Assembly (NCBI GenBank): GCA_030435675.1
Contig: CM059622.1
Span: 15,810,001 to 15,874,000 of the forward strand
Direction of reading: 5' to 3'
Source: Steinernema hermaphroditum
Lineage: Eukaryota > Nematoda > Chromadorea > Rhabditida > Steinernematidae
DNA length: 64,000 nt
Position 1 is the stretch's first letter, and the number at the start of each line of letters is the position of its first letter. Positions 4,211 to 62,812 of the stretch are shown here, in pieces. The position numbers and the translations under genes were made by a program. The notes beneath the pieces were generated by a model. That model searched no databases. It had not been told where the DNA came from and saw nothing but the letters and a program-made list of their open reading frames with translations.

Positions 4211-7133
4211 ATGTCAACCTTTCAACAACTCTGCGACCAAGCCGAAGCCTACGCAGACAACGTAAACTTACTGATTATATTGGCTGTCAAGTCGGCAATG
4301 TCAGCAGTTGGATTGGCTGGCTTCATTGTCGTTTACAAAAGACAGGTACGGTCGCTGAATTTAGTCGGACAAGATGGAAATTAAACCGTATATGTCCAAA
4401 TCAGAAAGGGCTACAACGCAAACAGGAAAGCGAACTGACAACCATCCCAGGCGAGCTGGCAATCCAAGTCGGGGCAATGGGAGCCATTCTAGAGGGGCCT
4501 CCAACTCCGTCTTGGATTTGCGATTTTGACAGTATCGGCTTCACTTTGTGCACTGCATATTACCACCTTTATCGAACGCCTGTTTCCGGAGGACCAAGGA
4601 GAACTAAGGGAACCCAAAACGCTCAAAAAACCGTACATGTCCAAATTGGCCACCATTTTAAGATTCTTATGTTATCCTCCATTATTTACATAGAGCTCTC
4701 TTAGCTCTATCTGATGATCGATCACTAGTGTGTCATACATATAACGACATGGTTAAAACAAGGGTGATATGGCTTGGCTCAGGACAAAAGCTCTCTATTA
4801 TGACTACAGAATCCATTTTAGCGTCTCACCAACACTTTCCACTGCAACGCTCGTCTCCTTCTTCGATTTCACATCGCTTTCGTGATCCTTAGCAGTATGG
4901 GAATACTGATACCCGACGGCTACAACTTTATTCACTACACAGTCGTTCGTTGGCTTAGAAACCACAAGGTTTGCACCTACAGTACTTCATCCTTTTCGTT
5001 ATACAGTCTCAGGACTGCCCTGTTACCCCTATGAGCCAGTACTTCACCATCCTCCGAATGCTGAAACTCACCGGCTATGATGGCTCAACATACACGGCTG
5101 CAGCGTGGGTTCTGGAAAGAGTTTACGCGACGATGTTTACACACTCCTACGAGAAGAAATGCAGCGCTCTTGGCTGGGCTCTTTCATGCACAGCGACCGC
5201 AGCCGCCCTCATTGGCACGGCTGTGCGAATATCGCTCGGAGACTACAGTATGCCCATTCCTGTTATGATGATAACTGGCAGCTCGTACAAGTTCAACATG
5301 ACCGTGAGATTGTGGTGATATAATTGGTGATTACGTTGAGTGATTTTAGGTACAAACCGTGGCAGCCTGCGTTGAAGTCTTCAACGTTTTAATACTCTTA
5401 ATTCTGTTGGTGATAAACAGAAGAAGACTGAGAAAAAGTGCCGGAATTGCAAGGTCTCTTACCACGAAATATCAGGTATCAATCGCTCAACGTGTAACAA
5501 AAAAAATCCAATAAAAATTATTGCTGACCGAACTTATCCCCTATATAAATGGAGAACCGACGGGTCCGTTGGTCTGTGTGTGTGTGTTTTTCCGTGCGCA
5601 CGGCGGAAACACCCACACAAAATAAGGACCCCGAGGGGAACCGAACCCGACACCGCCCGCTTACAAACAGAGAACGTTCGCAATGAGCCACAAAGACAGC
5701 TGAGATGGTAGCGCTCTACTTCCTCTATCTCTCTGGCGATGCTAGGCTTTGAGTTTTTTTGCTGTTTTTGAGTGATTTTTTGCCTATTTTGTAACCAGCA
5801 GTGTTTTCGGTTCGAGTTTCCTGAAACTTTACAGTTTGTTCGCCCGCTTTAGCCGTTTTTTCATTAGCGCCAATCTTGCCGCCCGCAGGGCTATGGTGCC
5901 TTGCCGCCCGCAGGGCTATGGTGTCTTGCCGCCCGCAGGGCTACAGTTTTTGGCCCCAACTTCAGCCCTATCCACGAGCGCCAATCTTGCCGCCCGCAGG
6001 GCTACAGGCTAATTGGCTTTTAGTACCTCTAGGGCGCGAATTCGCGCGCAGCCGGGTTTATTTAAATAACATGAAGTCCGTACCCGGACCAGGTGAGCAG
6101 GTCTGTCATGGCAGTGGCATGAGAAATTTAAAAATTTAAACGTAAAAAAAGTCTACGTTTATGATAATTCAATTTGCTCATATCCGTTCAAAAAGGAACG
6201 GTACCCGGTTACTACAAAAGCAACCACAACCACTGAACAACAAACAATAACGAGAGTAGAACCGCCGCGCGGATGGCACTCGCTCGCGCGGTCGGGGCTA
6301 CGGTATAGGGACTTCATGGTGGGAGCCCGGGGCATCTTCTCTGCACAAATGCACAGCTGAACTCCGTATTTTTACGCTTTTTTTTTTGAGATTGCTCCAT
6401 CGTACAATAATCATGAGCAGGACGCACTTATAAATCTGATTATCGATTAAATATATCGTGTTGGTTAAGATGTATAGTTGTGCCTTTCATTCTTCTCTTA
6501 ACGCTAGCCCTGGTCGCTCAAGTTCCAGTTGGTTTCTATCAGCTAAACTGTTTAAAGATGAACTATAAGATGATAAATGTGTTACTCGCTAAAATGAACG
6601 AAAAGAAAAAATTTCGACCGTGACAGGACTCGAACCTGCAATCTTCGGATCCGAAGTCCGACGCCTTATCCATTAGGCCACACGGTCACGCTGTTGACTT
6701 AACACTATTTACATAAACCTGCATTTCAAAACTTCTCAAATTTCGGCACTTTTAGATCCGCGAAAACGTGCTTGCCACATCGTTGATCCTTCCACTGGCC
6801 CTGCTCCACTGCTTGCTCTACTTTCCTGCCGCCATCGTCATGCCGCTCGTTACGAAACAAGGACTGTCACCCTACGAAAGAGTCATTCTCTTTGCCAACA
6901 GCGAATGGCTAGTCGTGTACAGCTTAGCGTTGCCTCTACTGCTGTGGTGGCGAAATGGAGTCAAGAAGTAGAAAATGCTATACATATATGCTCAGTTATT
7001 CTACTCTTTCAGGAGTCATGTCGAATCGCTGGTTAGGAACAACCTCATCGGAGAGAAGTACAAAAACGACCGAAAAGAAGGGAAAGTCGAAACGGCGAAA
7101 TATTTTGAAATGTTCAATCAAATGTTAGCGTAA
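4211..7133 (+). CDS. Srab-like 7TM chemoreceptor, complete, 6 exons
   Basis: Exons 4211-4345, 4822-4968, 5013-5303, 5350-5475, 6756-6967 and 7013-7133 join in frame to 343 residues. The product is a predicted G-protein-coupled chemoreceptor of sensory neurons. TM1 lies in exon 1. Exon 2 carries the family signature FHCNARLLLRFHIAF (TM2). Exon 3 starts DCPVTPM and holds the TM3 end WVLERVYATMF plus SYEKK. Exon 4 ends TTKYQ, and exon 5 starts IRENVLATSL (TM6) and ends with LLLWWRNGVKK (TM7). The tail repeats the ETAKYFEMFNQMLA motif. Intron 4 is 1,280 bp and contains an antisense tRNA-Arg, a tRNA-like repeat and short tandem repeats. The exon that is split in the 15.1-kb paralogue (WAL...TATAA) is fused here. 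Sra-superfamily membership is firm; Srab rather than Sra or Sre is less so. Confidence 0.88.
5624..5697 (-). repeat. tRNA-like (SINE-like) element
   Basis: On the minus strand this reads as a degenerate tRNA. An A-box-like TGGCTCATTGCGAACG is followed about 30 bases later by a B-box-like GGGTTCGGTTCCCC. The cloverleaf does not close well. It is followed by a tail with GTGCGCACGGAAA and a CA run (to about 5566), which resembles the tail of the element at 57962-58072. The best reading is a tRNA-derived SINE inside intron 4 of the chemoreceptor gene. Confidence 0.5.
5873..6010. repeat. Short GC-rich tandem repeat
   Basis: Four imperfect copies of a unit built on CTTGCCGCCCGCAGGGCTA, three of them nearly adjacent and the last after a 40-bp interruption. 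It lies inside intron 4 of the chemoreceptor gene and is much more GC-rich than its surroundings. Confidence 0.7.
6615..6687 (-). tRNA. tRNA-Arg (anticodon TCG)
   Basis: 73-nt tRNA with no intron. The acceptor stem GACCGTG pairs with CACGGTC and the discriminator is G. The anticodon stem TCGGA/TCCGA encloses the loop CTTCGGA, giving anticodon TCG, which reads CGA codons. The T arm contains GGTTCGAGTCC. It is antisense inside intron 4 of the 4.2-kb chemoreceptor gene. Identical tRNA sequences occur at 52597-52669 and 54745-54817, and the 3'-flanking sequence is shared with the 52.6-kb copy. Confidence 0.97.
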
Positions 7134-22927: not shown

Positions 22928-23011
22928 TGTCATCCGCAGGATTCGAACCTGCGCCCTCCGAAGAGGACTGCGACCTGAACGCAGCGCCTTAGACCACTCG
23001 GCCAGAATGAC
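22928..23011 (-). tRNA. tRNA-Leu (anticodon CAG), copy 1
   Basis: 84-nt class II tRNA. The acceptor GTCATTC/GGATGAC has one wobble pair and discriminator A. The anticodon stem CTGCG/CGCAG encloses TTCAGGT, giving CAG. A long variable arm (TCCTCTTCGGAGG) and T arm GGTTCGAATCC are present. A second identical gene lies 171 bp away; their shared flanks show that a segment was duplicated. Confidence 0.97.
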
Positions 23012-23182: not shown

Positions 23183-23266
23183 TGTCATCCGCAGGATTCG
23201 AACCTGCGCCCTCCGAAGAGGACTGCGACCTGAACGCAGCGCCTTAGACCACTCGGCCAGAATGAC
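23183..23266 (-). tRNA. tRNA-Leu (anticodon CAG), copy 2
   Basis: Same 84-nt sequence as copy 1, same strand. Both copies are followed on their 3' side by the same AGAAATTTTTCTC run, so the duplication includes the terminator (T-run) region. An apparent 153-residue frame over both genes is the result of this duplication and is not a protein. Confidence 0.97.
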
Positions 23267-41240: not shown

Positions 41241-42408
41241 CACCACTACCCGACTACCTGCGCGTCCTTCTCAAAGCAAAGAAATGGTCCAACTTCGATA
41301 TCAGAGCGGCCTGAAACGCTATAATGGAATCCTTCCAACTAAAGATCTTGCTAAATTCTTTCGAAATCTTAGGTTCGAAACCCAAACAATTGCCACAGGG
41401 ACTCTCCAGCTGAAGGCGATAAGACGCGCCAAGCCTGAGAGCCGATCAGCTGAATAATGCTTCCGGTGGAAGCTAATAAAAGAGAGGTCAAGACTCTGTG
41501 TGAGCTGCGACTAGACCGAAGCTGAGCTTCGACCTAGCTCGTTCTGTATTCCATTTCGGCCGATATGCTCCTCCACGACACTGCAGATCTCCACCGCTTG
41601 GAAGTCTGCACTGGATCGCGTCACCTTTACCTCAACGTCGTGCCCTGCGCCGAAAAAAAAGAAGCGAAGAAACGATTACAGTGGTCGGTTCCAGGTTATA
41701 ATGGCCATTTTTGCTTGGCCATTTCGACCTTCTCCCACAGTGATCTACGTTTCTTCACTGCTTATTGAAAGGTCCGTAAACGAAATTAAAATACGTCAAT
41801 GTAATATAAGCAACCAAACAGGCAAGGAGGGTGTGGGGCGTTAAAAACAAGCTCGTGGGAGCCTTCAGGTTCGTGAGCTAAAAAACAGGACTAAAGTGTA
41901 TTGATATTTAATAAGCTGGACAAGGACGCTGGACAATACAACAAATCAAGGACGACTGAAAAACGACGCCCGTCAAAAGGTCGCACAGTTAGGTTACGAA
42001 CGTGCGAAAGTCAGAATTGAACAAGGAAGCACTTCCAAAGAACCTAGGTTAACAGATTAACGAGATTTATGGAGTATTTAATATGTAGTGTGGCAAAACA
42101 ACGATTGAAAGGGAATGTGCCTCAGTGGGAGTAAACACCGCCGCCTGAAAACATGTGTGAAAAACATGAAATATACAATATTTTTTTTACATATTATGTG
42201 AAGAATAGGAATACGAATACTTACGACCAATTCGACCATTCCCCCACCCCGGGGTATGCACCTATTCGTCCGGCAACATTTCTCTCTTTAAATGATTTCT
42301 TCGAGCAGTTTCTTTGGGCAATAGGAAAGCGTGGTATTTCGTTCCCCTGTACGAATTGATAACAAGCATCAGATTATAAGCAGCTGCTTATCATTATGGC
42401 GTCATTAT
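41241..42408. other. Gene-poor interval
   Basis: No gene is recognised. 41540-41700 (CGATATGCTCCTCCACGACA... GCCGAAAAAAAAGAAGCG) may be a diverged R1-like repeat. Confidence 0.35.
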
Positions 42409-42572
42409 GCGGAGAAGCGCGAACGCTGTCCCCTGACTCAAAAATTTAGCTGTTGGCCAACTCCAACTCGGAGCTGCCACACGGGTCAGCCGGGAGCGAA
42501 AGTGCAATGTCCCAGCCTCGCCATGGATTCCCCGCCTTGATGATCGCGGGGAGATCCCAGCCAGGTAAGTTT
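42409..42572 (-). ncRNA. U1 snRNA gene, copy 1
   Basis: 164 nt. The minus strand starts AAACTTACCTGG, whose ACTTACCTG pairs with 5' splice sites. Stem-loop I holds GATCATCAAGG (U1-70K site) and loop II ATTGCAC (U1A site). Stem-loop III is rich in TCCGAGTTGGAGTTGG. An Sm site AAATTTTTGAG and a terminal hairpin GGGGACAGCG-TTCG-CGCTTCTCC follow. The length equals that of human U1. The promoter element is at 42593-42612. It is head-to-head with the SL1 gene at 42784. Confidence 0.95.
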
Positions 42573-42783
42573 ATGAGCCGTCCAGTGCTGGTCACTTATG
42601 TGGGGCGCGACCTTTTTGTTGCAACGGTGCGCAGTGTCCACCCCAGAGAAGCAGAGAAGAAGATGCTACACACAAAAAGAACGCTCGGTCGCATAGCTCT
42701 CTGCGCGCTCGCTAACCGCGACCCGCGCCTCAGCAGAGAGACGGTCGCTCCCCACACAAGTGCCTCCACACCACACCATCATC
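42573..42783. promoter_or_regulatory. Bidirectional U1/SL1 promoter spacer
   Basis: The 211-bp spacer carries two copies of the shared element GGTCGC(T/G)CCCCACA(C/T)AAGTG in opposite orientations. The copy at 42593-42612 (minus) ends 21 bp before the U1 start, and the copy at 42743-42762 (plus) ends 22 bp before SL1. The position and its sharing between RNA types fit a proximal sequence element (PSE) of snRNA genes. Confidence 0.85.
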
Positions 42784-42879
42784 GGTTTAATTACCCAAGT
42801 TTGAGGTAAACAATAGATCCGCTCTTTCAAATGGAAGTGGCGAGATAAATTTTGGAACTGCGTCTCCAAGGAGATGCTC
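42784..42879 (+). ncRNA. SL1 spliced leader RNA gene, copy A
   Basis: The first 22 nt (42784-42805) equal nematode SL1 (GGTTTAATTACCCAAG through TTTGAG). They are followed by a GTAAAC donor, a middle region with ATCCGCTCTTTCAAATGGAAG, an Sm site AAATTTTGG and a 3' hairpin GCGTCTC-CAAG-GAGATGC (42860-42877). It is trans-spliced to mRNA 5' ends. The 3' end is placed just after the hairpin. The donor-side sequence differs slightly from the other copies (GTAAACAATAG). Confidence 0.96.
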
Positions 42880-42976
42880 ATAATAAAATCTAGCGAACAT
42901 ACATATCTATCGATCCCAACAATCACTTCCGCCAACGGAGAATGCCATCTCAACTTCTTGTCATGAGCGTCTTGGT

Positions 42977-43007
42977 TATAAGCATCTCCAAAGAGACGCA
43001 GTTCCAT
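42977..43007 (-). pseudogene. SL1 RNA 3'-end fragment
   Basis: The minus strand has TGGAACTGCGTCTCTTTGGA then GATGCTTATAA. This is the Sm-site end, 3' hairpin and downstream flank of SL1 RNA without the leader or promoter. It lies between copies A and B. Confidence 0.85.
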
Positions 43008-43073
43008 TCAGCAACGGCAACAATTACTGCGATCGCCGACAGCTTTCAGCTCGACGTCTTCTTATCACATTAT

Positions 43074-43169
43074 AAGCATCTCGAAAGAGACGCAGTTCCA
43101 AAATTTATCTCGCCACTTCCATTTGAAAGAGCGGATCTAATGATTACCTCAAACTTGGGTAATTAAACC
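43074..43169 (-). ncRNA. SL1 spliced leader RNA gene, copy B
   Basis: An exact 22-nt SL1 (43148-43169) is followed by GTAATCATTAG, one base changed in the donor region (GTAATC rather than GTAAAC), which may weaken the donor. The Sm site AAATTTTGG and hairpin GCGTCTC-TTTC-GAGATGC are intact. It is divergent from copy C across a 218-bp spacer. The promoter element is at 43191-43210, 22 bp from the start. Confidence 0.96.
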
Positions 43170-43387
43170 GACGACGATGTCGTGTGGAGGCACTTATGTG
43201 GGGAGCGACTATGTCTTTGCTGCGGTGGGAGGTCCTACTCCTGAAAAGCAGAGAAATTTATCGCACTGTGGAGAGTGATCGCGTCACTTTCACGTGCACA
43301 CATAGAGGGGTGCCGTCGGCCACGATTCGCACCGTTGCAGCGGGACAGTCGCTTGTCACACAAGTGCCTCCACACCACATCGTCGTC
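43170..43387. promoter_or_regulatory. Bidirectional SL1/SL1 promoter spacer (B/C)
   Basis: PSE-like copies lie at 43191-43210 (minus) and 43347-43366 (plus; AGTCGCTTGTCACACAAGTG, the most diverged plus-strand copy). In the middle, 43291-43308 has CACGTGCACACATAGAGG, an E-box-containing block also found in the D/E spacer and, inverted, in the F/G spacer. Confidence 0.8.
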
Positions 43388-43483
43388 GGTTTAATTACCC
43401 AAGTTTGAGGTAAACATTAGATCCGCTCTTTCAGATGGAAGTGGCGAGATAAATTTTGGAACTGCGTCTCCAAGGAGATGCTT
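43388..43483 (+). ncRNA. SL1 spliced leader RNA gene, copy C
   Basis: Exact SL1 at 43388-43409, GTAAACATTAG, Sm site AAATTTTGG, and hairpin GCGTCTC-CAAG-GAGATGC as in copy A. A TTATAAGTAAAA flank follows. Confidence 0.96.
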
Positions 43484-43609
43484 ATAAGTAAAAATTGGAG
43501 AGGCTGCGTGGTGCCAAATTTGAAGGAGTTGAGAGCAGTGCATTTGACTACCTCTTAGTGTGTAGTTCGTTTCACTAGCAGAGCTTACTTGTGGGATTAT
43601 TAATTACAG

Positions 43610-43662
43610 GCATCTGTTCGGAGATGCTTATGAAGCAACTCTTTGATACACATTCTTTCTGA
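43610..43662 (+). pseudogene. Degenerate SL1 RNA 3' end and flank
   Basis: GCATCTGTTCGGAGATGC resembles the SL1 3' hairpin. It is followed by TTATGAAGCAACTCTTTGAT and TTCTTTCTGA, which matches the sequence downstream of copy E (46677-46715). It is probably the relic of a lost SL1 gene. Confidence 0.55.
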
Positions 43663-44112
43663 TAAATTTTGGGACAGAACTCAACTAAACTCAAAAGTAC
43701 GTCAAACGCAAAACTCAAAAAAAGAATGTTAAAACTCAGAACTTTTTTGATAGAGTCAGACCCAAAATCAAAACTTAGAGCCATTTGCGACGTGGAACAA
43801 CAGAAATACACAAAAAGTTTCTTTGACAAAGCCTTCCAGAAGGCCATTTGAGTTTAAAAAACTTTTTGGTGTCATCGCCCATCGGGCCATTGCATGCATA
43901 ACGCTGCACAGGATCCACCGCAAATACTGCCTTCGCTCACCTTGGAGCGATGACGCAAACTCAAGTTTCAGAGACTACAATGATTCAAAGACCTTATGCG
44001 TTCTTCTAATTTGCTAACATATGGTTCATTCACTCAATTTGCGTTCTTTATCATATTCATACGGATGAATCATGCTTAACCCATAAAACAAAAGCAGAAG
44101 TCTGTCCGGTTA

Positions 44113-45489
44113 CTAAGGCAGCGAAAAGATGCGACCTGCCATCTCAAGCTGGTCGCACTTCACGCTACCTTCGATCTTCACTCGATTCTCCGTCGCTCTG
44201 CAGATAAACGCCGCGTAGTTCCAGGTGCTTGTGAAGTAACTTGTGAAGTTGGTGTTCACGTCCTCTCCATCTAGAACGTGTAGGTTATGCAATGCTCATG
44301 AAGGAACTCTATTACTCTCTTTCCTTTGAAGATTCTGTAGCATCTTGAGGCAGCTGGTCCCGTACACAACTACTCCATGGATAATCATGTGCCCTTTGGA
44401 TCGACCATTTGCTGAAGGAACGATTTCCATAAGTCCACTTCCACTGTCGCCTTTACAAGCGTTTGAGTCTTTTACTTCAGTGCAGACGGTGTCCAGAAAA
44501 TTTGGGCGACATTGCTCGATTTTGACATCGAGCTTGTTCAAATAGAACTTATGCCGAGACACTTTAGCTAAATGTACGAGGTTTAACTGTAACCATGCCT
44601 TATGCCTACGGTCGTATCCGAATCCTGCGAATGCAAGTGAAGCGTTGGAAGATTGGATCTTTCGAGTAGTTGGAATGCGAATGTCGAGGTCTGATGTCTT
44701 TTCATCGTAAATAGGACGTTTTAGTCGGATGACGGCGATGTCAGTTCGCGTATCCCCGTGACGCATAACAACGTAGCGCTTCGGCATGTAGACCTCTTCG
44801 ACAAGGTCGTGATGATCAGTCAGTGGAATGTAATCGTCTTCTCCAGATACGCATCCAGCGCAGTTTCCTCTGTATTGGATGACAATTTCGTGACGATGGA
44901 ACGTTGTGTTTGGGCACCACATAAAGCAAAATTAATTAGCTTTTGTTTAGTGCTTTGCCTACTTGATCTTGTGAAAGCAGCCGGGCAGTTCGAAGAAACA
45001 GTGAGCCGCAGTGAGAATGTGACGACCATCAAGCAAGGTTCCTCCGCAGAATGCACCTGAAATTTAACTTTTTTAAATAGGCTTTCGAGCAATTGATGCC
45101 AAAACGTAATTGGATTTCTACATGTGCATGTAGAGGAGGGTTTTCACAAAGTTTTACCTCCTTCTCAAAAGAAAATCTTACGTCCTGGAATATTGATCCT
45201 GACAACATGATCCAGAATCCCTTTCACGCGCACTCCATTGAGTATTCCCTCCGAATCGGCATTAGATGCCACGTTCCAAAGTCCAGATCGGTGAGTGTTC
45301 CCAGTAGAGTTGCGGCCGTCTAGACATAAAGTTACAGCGCTTTCCACTCTTTGTGCAAAAGTTACAGGCGGGATTTCCAAGTCGACTTTTGAAGGAGTGA
45401 ACATCCTTGACGTCTGTCATTTTCTTCGTGGTCTCTCCATTGCAACATTGCAAGGAAAGGAGTAGAGCAACTGTAGCGAGAAGACGCAT
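44113..45489 (-). CDS. Trypsin-like (S1 family, DUF316-type) secreted serine protease
   Basis: Minus-strand exons 45056-44963, 44869-44316 and 44270-44113 and the segment ending at 45182 join in frame. The catalytic triad is visible: His in GRHILTAAHC, Asp in RTDIAVIRL and Ser in CKGDSGSGLM. An ILNGVRVKG sequence stands where the activation site lies, and the C-terminus (YFTSTWNYAAFICRATE) is typical of the nematode DUF316 trypsin-like group. A signal peptide MRLLATVALLLSLQ at 45489 is in a different frame from the downstream exon. Either a 61-bp intron with weak splice sites (GTTGCA...CAAAAG) or a frameshift links them. The product is probably extracellular, for digestion or defence; the substrate is unknown. 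It sits between SL1 pairs, antisense to copies C and E. Confidence 0.85.
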
Positions 45490-46271
45490 CCAGAAGAGGT
45501 GTCGAATGTTGAAACGCGGCAGCTTTTATAGGAAATTTGAAACCTATAATGGCATGTAATAAAGCCACTTGTTCGAGCGAACAGCTGGACAACATCCTAT
45601 TGTATTCCTTGGTTGGATTCGATTTTTTATGGCTTTGCACTAACAACGGAGCTGGCTCTGCTTATCATGCAAGCCATTTTATTGGAGGCAGAACTGACCG
45701 TGTAATTCCGTTCTGTTTCCGTTTCGAAACAGGTGTTCAAAGCTGTTTAGATCCAAAATATCGAATATCCCGATGTTTCGCACAGTCTTGCGGATTCAGC
45801 AAACTGTCCTTATTGTAACTTTGTAGCGCCAGATGCAATGTTGGGAACCAAAAAGTGCCAAATTTGTCAACAAGACATTGTCACATTTCTTTCGAAGATG
45901 GCCTTCTCCTTAACGACTGAAACGCTGCTTCACATTGTAATATCTGTCAATCGAACCTCCTCTTGGCTGGGATTTTCACGCTTTGTAATGTTTCTCGTCA
46001 ATGGGGCAGTCGTAGTCAGTTGTACGACCCTGTATCAAAATCGGCCTCTATTTGCGAGAACTCGAAATAGATTTGTGGAGTGATCAGGACAAGAAGTCAC
46101 CGAGATATCGATAGGCGAGTTGAGGCACCTTACTATATTCCCTACAGCGACGGAGTTTCTCTGATCACAGTTACCTTTTCTTAACACAATCGACTGCGCG
46201 CGGGTGCTAAATCTTCTCTTCGTTTTGGGTATCGTCCCCCATTCCACAGATGACTACAGTGTGATGCTTAT
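45490..46271. other. Intergenic interval
   Basis: No gene is recognised. Frames of 81-94 residues overlap the protease 5' end or are featureless. Confidence 0.4.
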
Positions 46272-46365
46272 AAGCATCTCGAAAGAGACGCAGTTCCAAT
46301 TTATCTCACCACTTCCATTTGAAAGAGCGGATCTAATGTTTACCTCAAACTTGGGTAATTAAACC
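46272..46365 (-). ncRNA. SL1 spliced leader RNA gene, copy D, shortened Sm site
   Basis: Exact SL1 at 46344-46365 with GTAAACATTAG and hairpin GCGTCTC-TTTC-GAGATGC. The Sm site reads AAATTGGAAC instead of AAATTTTGGAAC, a 2-nt loss, making the gene 94 rather than 96 nt. It may be poorly assembled into snRNP and could be a pseudogene. The promoter element at 46387-46406 is intact. Confidence 0.9.
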
Positions 46366-46580
46366 GGCGACGATGTGGTGTCGAGGCACTTATGTGGAGA
46401 GCGACTGTCTCTCTGCAACGCTGTGGGGTGCCTACTCCAGAGAAACAGAGAGATCTCTCGCGCTGCGGAGAGGTATTGCGTCTCTTTCACGTGCACACAT
46501 AGAGGCCGCCGACCACGACTCGCGCCGCAGCAGAGAGACCGTCCCGCCCAACACAAATGCCTCCACACGACATCGTCGTC
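46366..46580. promoter_or_regulatory. Bidirectional SL1/SL1 promoter spacer (D/E)
   Basis: PSE-like copies lie at 46387-46406 (minus, 22 bp from D) and about 46539-46559 (plus, ending 22 bp before E; diverged to CCGTCCCGCCCAACACAAATG within this span). The E-box-containing CACGTGCACACATAGAGG block is at 46488-46505. Confidence 0.8.
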
Positions 46581-46676
46581 GGTTTAATTACCCAAGTTTG
46601 AGGTAAACATTAGATCCGCTCTTTCAAATGGAAGTGGCGAGATAAATTTTGGAATCGCGTCCCGATAGGGATGCTT
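46581..46676 (+). ncRNA. SL1 spliced leader RNA gene, copy E
   Basis: Exact SL1 at 46581-46602, GTAAACATTAG, Sm site AAATTTTGG. The 3' hairpin is GCGTCCC-GATA-GGGATGC (46657-46674). Relative to copies A-D a T-A pair is replaced by C-G, a compensatory change shared with copy H. This supports selection on RNA structure. Confidence 0.96.
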
Positions 46677-46784
46677 ATAATGTTGAAGAACTCTATGACA
46701 CGCTTTCTTTCTGAGGAGTTAACGTCCTCTTACGACTTCCCATTGAACAAATTATTTTCTCACAACTTTTTACATTGTACTTCA

Positions 46785-46885
46785 TGAACCACATCTCGCC
46801 AAGAAGACCGTCAAAACCGTCCGACCATTCGCGCCTCGCAAGCTCAAGATGCGCTCCAACTTCGAAGAGTGCACCTGACATTATT
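46785..46885 (+). repeat. Retroposon-like repeat R1, short fragment
   Basis: It contains CCACATCTCGCCAAGAAGAC and CGTC, then CGCTCCAACTTCGAAGAG, matching the middle of R1. Confidence 0.5.
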
Positions 46886-46939
46886 GCATTCGTGTATATA
46901 ACAACAAAACGCTAAAGGAATCAGTTAAAAAGAGTCAAG

Positions 46940-47923
46940 CTAATCGTCATCCTTTCTTCTCATCCTCGTCACGGCCATTCCAACGGTCATCGCTAACGTA
47001 TCTTTGCTGCTCGGCTTCTTCACGTGCAGCATCAGCAGCAGTTCTCTTCGATAAGGCTTTGTGACCCACAGAACCAAACAGCACGACACAAGAGAGTGCA
47101 GAGAAACTGACATAATGGAGATCTTGAATAGTACACTTCCAAGTCGGTTGTGGCCAATGATCTCATATCCAATGGCCACCACAATAGGCACAGAGACTAA
47201 TACCTGAGGGATAAGACTCTGAATAAGGACATTTGTGAAGAACATCCTCTGAAGTTGTATAGTCTTCGGTGCTGTTGTACTAGGTGGATTCTTGAGCTTC
47301 TTGTGCACCTTTAAAAGTAGATAACAGGCTACAGAAATGAAGGTGATTATGTAGATGAAAATGAACCCTATGGCGTAATTAACCAAGCCATCTGCTTTCA
47401 AGTCAGCTACGAAATAGCAGACAGGCGAGACAAAGCCGTTCAACTTAAAGGGAACGTGATGTTTGGCATAAGAATCGGAAGAATTTGAATGATATACGAT
47501 GATACCAAAGACTATAGCAGGGACAAGTACGAAAACTACATTCCATATGGCTCTTCTTCTGGTGAACAGGTCAAAGGAAAAGTAGTTCATCTTGGAATAG
47601 ACGTAAATATAGGACGACAGCAAAAGTTGGATATGCTGAACCATTAAAGCACCGCTAAGTGCTGACATGAGTCTATTGCTGAGAAACGATTTGAAGATCC
47701 CCTCCGTGTGAATACAGATCGGATGAGTCGTGAATTCAGGTTGCCATATGAAGCCGGTGACTACGCTTAGGGCTGTACTGTTGAGGCAGAGGACGCCGAG
47801 ATATATCCTAAAAGTTCGCATGGAGTGCGGAGATCGGAAAATAATCATGTAGAGCAGAAAGGCCTCGAGGAAGAGATCGAAGCTGACGATAAGGTAGGAA
47901 ACGACAGCCGTGAATGGCGCCAT
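46940..47923 (-). CDS. Str-superfamily (Srh/Sri/Srd-like) chemoreceptor, intronless
   Basis: A single 327-residue frame from ATG at 47923. Seven hydrophobic segments are apparent. Motifs are FRSPHSMRTFRIYLGVLCLN after TM1, QLQRMFFTNVLIQSLIPQVL leading into TM6, and the TKPYRREL motif after TM7, all typical of the Str superfamily (Srh, Sri, Srd, Str). The C-terminal tail is basic/acidic (VTRMRRKDDD). Most members of these families have introns, so an uninterrupted gene suggests intron loss or retroposition; no poly(A) tract is seen downstream. It is flanked by the SL1 pairs D/E and F/G. Confidence 0.92.
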   Translation of the reverse strand: MAPFTAVVSYLIVSFDLFLEAFLLYMIIFRSPHSMRTFRIYLGVLCLNSTALSVVTGFIWQPEFTTHPICIHTEGIFKSFLSNRLMSALSGALMVQHIQLLLSSYIYVYSKMNYFSFDLFTRRRAIWNVVFVLVPAIVFGIIVYHSNSSDSYAKHHVPFKLNGFVSPVCYFVADLKADGLVNYAIGFIFIYIITFISVACYLLLKVHKKLKNPPSTTAPKTIQLQRMFFTNVLIQSLIPQVLVSVPIVVAIGYEIIGHNRLGSVLFKISIMSVSLHSLVSCCLVLWVTKPYRRELLLMLHVKKPSSKDTLAMTVGMAVTRMRRKDDD

Positions 47924-48291
47924 TTTTAGAGGAAGTTGAAATGAAAGGTGTGATTTTAGTATGTGCCCTCTATCCCCGTTGTTTTGACTGAAAGGGTGAC
48001 CGACAGGTGACTTTCAAAACGTCACCTTTGGGTACATATGAACAAGATCATGGAGTTTCAGCGATCATGGATCTTTGAGACCTAACAGAACAGATGTCTG
48101 TTTGGCGCAACGAAAACAAAACTTTCCAGAATTTCAGGCAAAGAATAATGGAATGTAACCAGTTAGACAAAGACTTGAAATCTCACATGCAATAAAGAGT
48201 CCCCACTGAAAGATTAGGCGTAATTTCGAGCGAGGCCCATTACTGATTAAAGGCATCGTAGAGCCACTACAACAGCCCCTGTTATAATTAT

Positions 48292-48387
48292 AAGCATCTC
48301 GAAAGAGACGCAGTTCCAAAATTTATCTCGCCACTTCCATTTGAAAGAGCGGATCTAATGTTTACCTCAAACTTGGGTAATTAAACC
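48292..48387 (-). ncRNA. SL1 spliced leader RNA gene, copy F
   Basis: Exact SL1 at 48366-48387, GTAAACATTAG, Sm site AAATTTTGG, hairpin GCGTCTC-TTTC-GAGATGC. The PSE-like element is diverged at its end (AGTCGCTCTCCACCCAAGAGC, 48408-48426). Confidence 0.96.
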
Positions 48388-48606
48388 GGCGACGATGTGG
48401 TGTGCACGCTCTTGGGTGGAGAGCGACTGTATCGCCGCAACGGCGCGAGTCGTGGTCGGCAGCGCCCCTCTATGTGTGCACGTGAAAGCGACACGATCAC
48501 TGTCCAAAGTGCGAGAGATTTCTCTGTTTCTTTGGAGTAGGCACCTCACAGCGCTACGACGAGACGGTCGCTCCCCACACAAGTGCCAGCACACCAGATT
48601 GTCGTC
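48388..48606. promoter_or_regulatory. Bidirectional SL1/SL1 promoter spacer (F/G), inverted type
   Basis: PSE-like copies lie at 48408-48426 (minus) and 48566-48585 (plus). The central CACGTGCACACATAGAGG block is present at 48467-48484 on the minus strand, opposite to the B/C and D/E spacers, so this whole asymmetric spacer is inverted relative to them. Confidence 0.8.
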
Positions 48607-48702
48607 GGTTTAATTACCCAAGTTTGAGGTAAACATTAGATCCGCTCTTTCAAATGGAAGTGGCGAGATAAATTTTGGAACTGCGTCTCTTTCGAGATGC
48701 TT
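48607..48702 (+). ncRNA. SL1 spliced leader RNA gene, copy G
   Basis: Exact SL1 at 48607-48628, GTAAACATTAG, Sm site AAATTTTGG, hairpin GCGTCTC-TTTC-GAGATGC, then TTATACTTTATAG. Confidence 0.96.
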
Positions 48703-48866
48703 ATACTTTATAGTGAAATTAGTAAGCACAGGATCTTTCCTGTCGCTCACTGGTGTTGTACGCCCCTCACGTTTTTCTCATGGTCTGAAATTCGCTATCA
48801 TTGATATAAGGGATGTTTCGTGTAGCCCACGGTAGCCAAATTAACTGTTCCAAACATTCTCATTAT

Positions 48867-48962
48867 AAGCATCCCTATCGGGACGCGATTCCAAAATTTA
48901 TCTCGCCACTTCCATTTGAAAGAGCGGATCTAATGTTTACCTCAAACTTGGGTAATTAAACC
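48867..48962 (-). ncRNA. SL1 spliced leader RNA gene, copy H
   Basis: Exact SL1 at 48941-48962, GTAAACATTAG, Sm site AAATTTTGG, with the alternative hairpin GCGTCCC-GATA-GGGATGC and preceding GGAATC as in copy E. It is head-to-head with U1 copy 2. Confidence 0.96.
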
Positions 48963-49149
48963 GACGATGATGTGGCGTGGAGGCTCTTATGTGGGGACCG
49001 ATTATCTTGCTGCAGCGGCGCGAGTCGTGGTAGACGAGCGGTCTTTTTGTGGGTCACATGTTTTTCTCTGCTTCTCTGTGGTGGACACTGCGCGCCGCAG
49101 CAAGCGAACGGTCGCGCTCCACATAAGTGTCCAGCGTTGGACGACTCAT
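48963..49149. promoter_or_regulatory. Bidirectional SL1/U1 promoter spacer (H/U1-2)
   Basis: The 187-bp spacer has PSE-like copies at 48984-49003 (minus, AATCGGTCCCCACATAAGAG, 22 bp from SL1) and 49110-49129 (plus, GGTCGCGCTCCACATAAGTG, 21 bp from U1). The middle shares TCTCTGCTTCTCTG and GGTGGACACTGCGC with the U1-1/A spacer, so both U1/SL1 spacers derive from one ancestor. Confidence 0.85.
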
Positions 49150-49313
49150 AAACTTACCTGGCTGGGATCTCCCCGCGATCATCAAGGCGGGGAATCCATG
49201 GCGAGGCTGGGACATTGCACTTTCGCTCCCGGCTGACCCGTGTGGCAGCTCCGAGTTGGAGTTGGCCAACAGCTACATTTTTGAGTCAGGGGACAGCGTT
49301 CGCGCTTCCCCGC
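49150..49313 (+). ncRNA. U1 snRNA gene, copy 2
   Basis: 164 nt starting AAACTTACCTGG. Loop I has GATCATCAAGG, loop II ATTGCAC, and the terminal hairpin GGGGACAGCG-TTCG-CGCTTCCCC is perfect. The Sm region reads ACATTTTTGAG instead of AAATTTTTGAG in copies 1 and 3. Confidence 0.95.
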
Positions 49314-50314
49314 CAAAAAAAGGAATCGAATAGCATCACAGGGAGGAAAGTATATTCTTTATTAACAGCAGAGTGCTAATTGCATGAATGTCATGCATTT
49401 GGACGGACAAATTGAAAGTGTATATTCAAAGTCAATGAGAAATTCAAAGTACTTCTTCTTTGGCTAAATTTTAACACCTTATAAACAGTCATTTTCAGAA
49501 AACGGACATAACGGGCGAAATCCATCGTTACAAGGTTGTTGCGTTTTTCGTAAACGTCAGTGCAGAACTTTGGTCTAATGACTCAACTTCTGAGAATTCC
49601 TAACATAATTGGACGGCCATAATGATCATCAAAATTGCTATTTTCTTAGTATATCTCACCCTAAACTACTGTGTGTAGGTGGTTATTCGTGTTTGTTCTG
49701 AACTTGTGACATAATTGTCGTCTGGAAATATCTGAAATCGTGTCACCGTGAAATCGTATTGCTTAAAATTCTTCATATAAGGTTGAAACCTTTTCTCTGT
49801 CCACGTTTTATTTCTATGCATTGTGTCTTTTGGGTTCCATATTTCAGAAGAGATATTCATGTGGTAGCTTCCAACATTTGGCAAAAAGCTTGAAAGCTTG
49901 ACTTTCGTTGTATCCTGCCGGCCTACTCGAAGTAACTTGGCAATGTTTGTGAATGTTTTCGTACCCGCTGAGCTGACTCGGTTTGATATTAGCTTTTGAT
50001 AATGGGAGCATCCGAACCACCAGATTCATCTGGAATGTTAAGCTGACGGATGAAGACACCTGTGACTCAGTACTTTGATTTTGTTTGTGGTGACAGTGCT
50101 GCGCATCCAAAGTTCATGACTTAATATAAGCTATACATAATGTCCGCGATTTCAGTGTTCCTTTTGAATGTTCCTTTTTTTGTTGGTTCTTTTTCAATAT
50201 TTCGAATGCTACATCGGTTATTCGATGACTTCCAGTCGGTCCCCGGAGACCTTTCCAATTACTTCCTATCGAAATTTGAAATTTTGAGGTAAGTAAGTTC
50301 TAAGGAAGGTCTTT
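49314..50314. other. Gene-poor interval
   Basis: No gene is recognised; short frames at 49.7-50.1 kb are featureless. Confidence 0.4.
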
Positions 50315-52596: not shown

Positions 52597-52669
52597 CGAC
52601 CGTGACAGGACTCGAACCTGCAATCTTCGGATCCGAAGTCCGACGCCTTATCCATTAGGCCACACGGTC
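52597..52669 (-). tRNA. tRNA-Arg (anticodon TCG), copy 2
   Basis: 73 nt, sequence identical to the 6.6-kb gene, same strand. The 3'-side flank (about 260 bp, with AAATCTGATTATC, TCTATCGGCTAGACTGTTTA and AAAAAATTTCGACC) is recognisably the same as at 6350-6614, so the two are a segmental duplicate. Confidence 0.97.
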
Positions 52670-54744: not shown

Positions 54745-54817
54745 GACCGTGTGGCCTAATGGATAAGGCGTCGGACTTCGGATCCGAAGATTGCAGGTTC
54801 GAGTCCTGTCACGGTCG
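54745..54817 (+). tRNA. tRNA-Arg (anticodon TCG), copy 3
   Basis: 73 nt, identical to the other two copies but on the plus strand. It shares little flanking sequence with them beyond the run after the gene (AAACTTTTTCTT), which serves as a Pol III terminator. Confidence 0.97.
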
Positions 54818-62648: not shown

Positions 62649-62812
62649 GCGGGGAAGCGCGAACGCTGTCCCCTGACTCAAAAATTTAGCTGTTGGCCAA
62701 CTCCAACTCGGAGCTGCCACACGGGTCAGCCCGGAGCGAAAGTGCAATGTCCCAGCCTCGCCATGGATTCCCCGCCTTGCTGATCGCGGGGAGATCCCAG
62801 CCAGGTAAGTTT
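62649..62812 (-). ncRNA. U1 snRNA gene, copy 3
   Basis: 164 nt starting AAACTTACCTGG. Loop II ATTGCAC and Sm site AAATTTTTGAG are intact and the terminal hairpin is perfect (GGGGA/TCCCC with an inner AGCG-TTCG-CGCT). It differs from copy 1 in loop I (GATCAGCAAGG instead of GATCATCAAGG) and by a G/C change in stem II (CTCCGGGC for CTCCCGGC). The promoter element is at 62833-62852. It has no SL1 partner. Confidence 0.93.

Follow-up and report, generated by a model that had tools for sequence, protein, structure and literature searches.

A 64 000-nucleotide window of the Steinernema hermaphroditum genome (assembly GCA_030435675.1; positions 15,810,001–15,874,000 of contig CM059622.1, here C2, which is 17.7 Mb long in a genome of 90.65 Mb and 60 contigs) contains eight copies of the spliced leader 1 (SL1) RNA gene, arranged head to head with one another or with genes for the small nuclear RNA (snRNA) U1. 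We consider it likely, with a probability of roughly 0.6, that the SL1 copies on C2 are working genes with U1-type and probably bidirectional promoters, and that they form one of three SL1 pools in this genome. The window would then belong to an SL1/U1 superlocus dispersed along C2, in which each spacer may act as a bidirectional RNA polymerase II snRNA promoter that gives SL1 RNA in one direction and U1 or SL1 RNA in the other.

Eight exact SL1 22-mers are present in the window, each starting at the 5′ end of its gene as listed in Table 1, and a search allowing 1–2 mismatches returned no SL1 22-mers in the window beyond these (mean of 0.00 in 100 shuffles). In all eight genes the 22-nucleotide exon is followed by a GT donor and the 3′ hairpin is present. 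The Sm site between the internal stem and the 3′ hairpin is intact in seven; in the remaining copy, gene D (46365, reverse strand), AAATTGGAA replaces the AAATTTTGGAA found in the other seven, so that two T's are gone, the site is damaged and the gene is probably defective. A sequence-only reading made earlier had credited all eight genes with each of these four features, which is accurate apart from the Sm site of gene D. A single position in the basal stem of gene B is unpaired, and a remnant of a further SL1 3′ end lies between genes A and B. Rfam RF00198 matches all eight copies along its full length (1–103) with 32.8–37.8 bits (E 0.0007–0.009), under its gathering cut-off of 75; we call these copies SL1 genes on the strength of the exon, the donor, the Sm site and the 3′ hairpin rather than of the curated Rfam score. 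The window also contains three U1 genes, all above the gathering cut-off of RF00003 (118.4–120.4 bits). The Sm-like stretch of U1-2 differs by one base from those of U1-1 and U1-3, and U1-3, which falls outside the segment treated in the sequence-only reading, has no divergent partner closer than 600 bp among the genes listed. All five divergent pairs proposed in that reading (U1-1/A, B/C, D/E, F/G and H/U1-2) are present. Its statements that 5S-like sequence is missing from the locus and that a protease and a chemoreceptor gene sit between the pairs also held: no 5S match was obtained at the gathering cut-off over the whole window or at E ≤ 5 in 41800–50000, and open frames with Pfam Trypsin and 7TM_GPCR_Srh matches lie between the pairs.

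The arrangement extends along C2. Genome-wide SL1 gene calls rest on exon, intron and Sm-region patterns, with up to 100 places taken per pattern, and an SL1-like place on C2 is defined by an exact intron or, as far as listed, by an Sm region with ≤1 mismatch. C2 has at least 70 such places, of which 7 have single-pattern support and not every one was inspected as a whole gene, and at least 42 U1 genes; 58 and 39 of these, respectively, fall within 15.3–17.4 Mb, SL1 chiefly at 15.3–16.4 Mb and U1 on to 17.35 Mb. The best 42 of 1437 U1 candidates were scored; all 42 matched and all 42 are on C2. The other family searches likewise scored the best candidates, so that the counts of U1, U2, U5 and 5S are lower bounds, and the Rfam SL1 model gave 0 matches when run against the whole genome, a search that counts as uninformative. 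Among the 112 genes listed on C2, 74 form 37 divergent pairs, the start-to-start distance being under 600 bp (22 SL1/SL1, 11 SL1/U1 and 4 U1/U1). The start-to-start gap is 178–261 bp in 35 of the 37 pairs, the remaining two having gaps of 317 and 365 bp, and the 50 cases of neighbours within 700 bp comprise 38 divergent, 8 convergent and 4 tandem arrangements. Shuffling of the strands over the fixed C2 positions (10 000 runs) gave a mean of 12.2 pairs and a maximum of 23, compared with the 37 seen. The C2 pairs range from 10.9 to 16.3 Mb, and one further SL1/SL1 divergent pair, with a gap of 276 bp, is located on C1. The 38 unpaired C2 genes are 15 SL1 and 23 U1, 13 of the latter beyond 16.5 Mb, and 7 of these 13 have a same-strand U5 gene a few hundred bases downstream. 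The order U1 then U5 on one strand is found on C2 at 16.2–17.4 Mb, and U5 genes cluster on C1 at 16.76–17.11 Mb, including one close divergent pair.

Promoters were compared in a chosen sample of 15 of the 70 C2 SL1 places, 8 of the 42 U1 genes, five SL1 genes from contigs C7 and C4 and two U5 genes. For each other class, up to five registers were tried and the best one was kept; the shuffled control was scored in a single register. All classes have in common a core at -59 to -36 (C2 SL1 among themselves 0.71, with U1 0.60, with C7/C4 SL1 0.66 and with U5 0.55; shuffled mean 0.28, maximum 0.32), which stands at each end of the short head-to-head spacers. The proximal stretch at -35 to -21, which is CCCCACAYAAGTG-like, is shared by C2 SL1 and U1 (0.69, against 0.73 among C2 SL1 themselves) and is not shared with C7/C4 SL1 (0.36) or U5 (0.29; shuffled maximum 0.35 throughout). 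A further element near -88 occurs once in each pair of the window and once at U1-3, with nothing else at ≤4 mismatches in the 64 kb; in both U1/SL1 pairs it lies on the side of the U1 gene, and in each SL1/SL1 pair on a single arm. When the two U1/SL1 pairs of the window served as the standard for typing the arms of seven SL1/SL1 pairs, five of the seven combined a U1-like with an SL1-like arm; in one of these five the SL1-like arm was below the null. This typing is suggestive, no more.

Two other SL1 arrangements were found. Contig C7 (189,945 bp, 52.5 kb of it N) is a tandem of ∼9.9-kb units, and in both of the stretches scanned the unit holds 18S (reverse strand, running into the N part), 5S twice (forward) and U2 (reverse), with two forward SL1 genes between the 5S genes. 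At least 34 exact SL1 and at least 36 exact 5S copies are present in the readable part of C7, in which no 28S was seen (it may lie in the N part). Of the 20 U2 matches that the genome-wide search yielded, 19 fall in this array. On C4, 43 SL1 copies (≤2 mismatches in the 22-mer) are arranged head to tail at 13,375,647–13,392,981, with steps of 365–429 bp in 40 of 42 cases and of 468 and 539 bp in the others; no 5S gene is at this array among the matches listed. By eye, the proximal promoter stretch of the C4 copies resembles that of the ribosomal DNA (rDNA) copies rather than that of U1. The SL1 supply would thus come from three pools with apparently two promoter types, U1-type on C2 and another, alike by eye, on C4 and C7, which allows the question of which promoter feeds trans-splicing to be asked. 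An intron/Sm-region variant, GTAAATATT, is found in the C7 copies and in one C3 copy, and another, GCGATGTAAAT, in the 11 C4-array copies inspected, and these variants would let RNA data separate the pools. On C3, a lone 5S gene adjoins a mutated SL1 with two exon changes (C3:4002950–4003950), and more 5S matches and one rDNA-type SL1 copy occur at 4.05–4.19 Mb; these places are possibly relics of the rDNA array or lie near it. The genome thus has three SL1 arrangements, of which that on C2 is the largest by places listed (at least 70, compared with at least 43 on C4 and at least 34 on C7). The sequence-only reading had presented SL1 genes outside 5S rDNA as a different genomic solution, which is true of its own locus and not of the genome, since SL1 lies beside 5S on C7. 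The C7 array came to light in the whole-genome SL1 and 5S search that this reading had proposed, and by its own wording a separate 5S/SL1 array would make the C2 locus secondary.

The RNA fold was tested on 21 SL1 copies chosen from the pools, using one named structure and 420 cells, 99.5% of which pair in a three-stem fold with the 3′ hairpin. In helix 3, the 3′ hairpin, changes on both sides occur at two of seven pairs (5 cells); 5 cells were reached in 0 of 500 shuffles and 2 pairs in 16 of 500, and the count of further pair types does not exceed the chance level (286 of 500). The invariant exon is uninformative here because the 21 bodies were selected by pattern matches. In the window, the spacers of different pairs are 58–80% alike (79–80% among B/C, D/E and F/G, in one register) and the 3′ flanks 46–60%, and from this divergence the window pairs are neither recent nor assembly duplicates. 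Together, the fold and the flanks argue for maintained genes and against mis-assembly.

Several observations weigh against the reading of the C2 copies as working genes with U1-type promoters. The likeness in exon, intron and Sm region is partly by construction, because the copies were found by those patterns, and gene conversion could likewise hold the SL1 bodies alike. The damage to gene D and the 3′ fragment nearby indicate that some copies decay. The strand shuffle is no proof of selection for divergence, because pairs could duplicate as units. The promoter comparison leaves out the U1 at 16.87 Mb, two C1 SL1 genes and one U5, as well as U2 and the C3 copy; the 16.87-Mb U1 has a different stretch instead of the proximal element, and this element may therefore mark a neighbourhood and not U1. 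At -20 to -7, C2 SL1 is unlike U1 (0.39, equal to the shuffled maximum of 0.39) and shows little likeness to C7/C4 SL1 either (0.43). The -88 consensus was derived from the very promoters that were scored, and weaker versions stand at an equal position in U5 and C4 SL1 promoters. Arm typing is also imperfect: in four of the seven SL1/SL1 pairs the U1-like and the SL1-like arm both exceed their nulls, in a fifth the SL1-like arm does not, the 10.9-Mb pair has both arms below the null, both arms of the C1 pair are U1-like and the SL1 at 16.11, whose partner is U1, scores U1-like.

Three other explanations were considered. It is possible, if short of probable, that the C2 SL1 genes are expressed while their head-to-head layout serves no purpose, its spacing being simply inherited through many duplications of one ancestral divergent unit. 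The likeness of the B/C, D/E and F/G spacers is as expected of duplicated units and the promoter core is common to every class compared; yet three pair compositions keep the spacing of 178–261 bp in all but two pairs although no relationship is seen among the 3′ flanks of the window, and a spacing passed on by descent should have drifted in all but young copies. That the C2 copies are mostly silent relics, with the rDNA-linked array, the C4 array or both making nearly all SL1 RNA, seems improbable to us. Both arrays exist, with the copy numbers given above, and gene D has a broken Sm site, but seven of the eight window genes retain Sm site and hairpin in spite of their unrelated 3′ flanks, and some of the hairpin changes are compensatory, a pattern that gene conversion could mimic in part. 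SL1 is a repeat family, which is the setting in which one pair or cluster might be repeated through mis-assembly; such an artefact is nevertheless very hard to reconcile with the divergence of spacers and 3′ flanks and with pairs spread over more than 5 Mb of C2 and on to C1, and we regard it as extremely improbable.

We retain working SL1 genes with U1-type promoters as the best explanation. Gene anatomy, pairing, the promoter elements shared within a sample and the other arrays are observed, whereas we infer that the genes are transcribed, that the two members of a pair are controlled together and how much each pool gives. A more far-reaching version is offered tentatively and, taken as a whole, is rather unlikely: SL1 on C2 would have been taken over by U1-type promoters, the trans-splicing donor and U1 would be made from one spacer and co-regulated, the SL1 body would stand as if replacing U1 in several SL1/SL1 pairs, and the pools would be separately promoted, one of them inside an 18S/5S/U2 rDNA unit. 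In several SL1/SL1 pairs one arm retains the U1-side upstream element. A genome with such pools and with spacers shared by U1 and SL1 allows one to ask whether the RNAs of cis- and trans-splicing are made together, and in what way SL genes change from an snRNA to an rDNA surrounding or back.

The features of the window are collected in Table 1. Five tRNA genes are also present (6615–6687, 52597–52669, 54745–54817, 22928–23011 and 23183–23266), which fall into two groups of equal score, one at 71.6 and the other at 53.9 bits.

Table 1. SL1 and U1 genes, their spacers and intervening frames in the window (positions count from the first letter of the window).
Feature	Position	Strand	Remarks
U1-1 snRNA gene, divergent partner of A	42408–42572	-	RF00003, 120.4 bits
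Spacer U1-1/A, 211 bp	42573–42783		-88 element on U1 arm
SL1 gene A	42784–42883	+	Exact 22-mer, gene body
SL1 3′ end remnant	42976–43013	-	Partial SL1
SL1 gene B, one unpaired basal-stem position	43070–43169	-	Exact 22-mer, gene body
Spacer B/C, 218 bp	43170–43387		-88 element on B arm
SL1 gene C	43388–43487	+	Exact 22-mer, gene body
Trypsin-like open frame	44296–44922	-	Pfam Trypsin, 1.3e-7
SL1 gene D, Sm site short of two T	46268–46365	-	Exact 22-mer, gene body
Spacer D/E, 215 bp	46366–46580		-88 element on D arm
SL1 gene E	46581–46680	+	Exact 22-mer, gene body
Srh-type chemoreceptor frame	46940–47923	-	Pfam 7TM_GPCR_Srh, 3.1e-26
SL1 gene F	48288–48387	-	Exact 22-mer, gene body
Spacer F/G, 219 bp	48388–48606		-88 element on G arm
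SL1 gene G	48607–48706	+	Exact 22-mer, gene body
SL1 gene H	48863–48962	-	Exact 22-mer, gene body
Spacer H/U1-2, 187 bp	48963–49149		-88 element on U1 arm
U1-2 snRNA gene	49150–49313	+	RF00003, 120 bits
U1-3 snRNA gene, same promoter type	62649–62812	-	RF00003, 118.4 bits

SL1 22-mers also occur outside SL1 RNA genes. The genome contains 265 exact copies (177 on the forward and 88 on the reverse strand) and 167 places with the SL1 intron pattern at ≤2 mismatches, and in 64 exact copies (87 with ≤1 mismatch, on C1–C5) the 22-mer is directly preceded by ATAAA and followed by GT. The notion that every exact 22-mer is an SL1 gene was rejected on these counts, and the ATAAA-type copies explain in part the excess of 265 over 167. 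Eight of them were inspected (L001–L008, all on C1): TATAAA or TATAAAA precedes five and near variants three, and GT follows immediately in seven. Among six nearby frames searched against Pfam, the one after L003 has gag and aspartyl-protease domains and the one before L004 integrase domains; three others are without a family and one, at L006, is an Srt chemoreceptor. L003 and L004 lie on the same strand 4.66 kb apart and are therefore taken as the two long terminal repeats (LTRs) of one element. Neighbouring couples within 12 kb among the 87 copies are on the same strand in 12 cases and on opposite strands in two. With one element checked, the majority of the 87 would be starts of LTR elements, and such a copy looks like a built-in leader with a splice donor. 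SL1 in LTR elements is not new in kind, since Pao retrotransposons flanked by SL1 sequences are described for Brugia malayi (PMC7181701). Here too, exact SL1-like 22-mers stand outside SL1 genes, two on one strand at either side of an LTR element, which need not be of the Pao class; the parallel applies to the retroelement-like copies and not to the C2 genes.

Among the known arrangements of SL genes, that of Caenorhabditis elegans is a tandem 5S rDNA–SL1 array of ∼110 copies (PMC1657053, PMC11822377). The SL1 22-mer is identical here, the RNA is likewise ∼100 nucleotides long and SL1 again lies beside 5S on C7, but there it shares its unit with 18S and U2 as well, whereas the C2 copies are scattered in divergent arrangement with U1 as a partner, and no 5S match lies close to them in the window. 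The SL2 genes of C. elegans offer another likeness: they are scattered, and ATTF-6 binds their promoters as it does those of U1, U2, U4 and U5 (PMC11822377), so that dispersed SL RNA genes are grouped with snRNA promoters in both species. The genes here are SL1, however, and the sections available of that account describe no head-to-head pairing for SL2. Neither U1/SL1 head-to-head pairs nor an 18S/5S/U2/SL1 unit turned up in our literature search, which covered sources in part, and an earlier report may exist. In Oscheius tipulae, 5S and SL1 do not form clusters together (PMC8022731), so that SL1 genes apart from 5S have a precedent; U1 pairing and divergent promoters are not mentioned in the available portion of that account, and in S. 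hermaphroditum 5S-linked and unlinked pools coexist. The interest of the present locus thus lies in the U1/SL1 promoter link and in the coexistence of the pools, more than in an absence of 5S for which O. tipulae already provides a precedent (PMC8022731).

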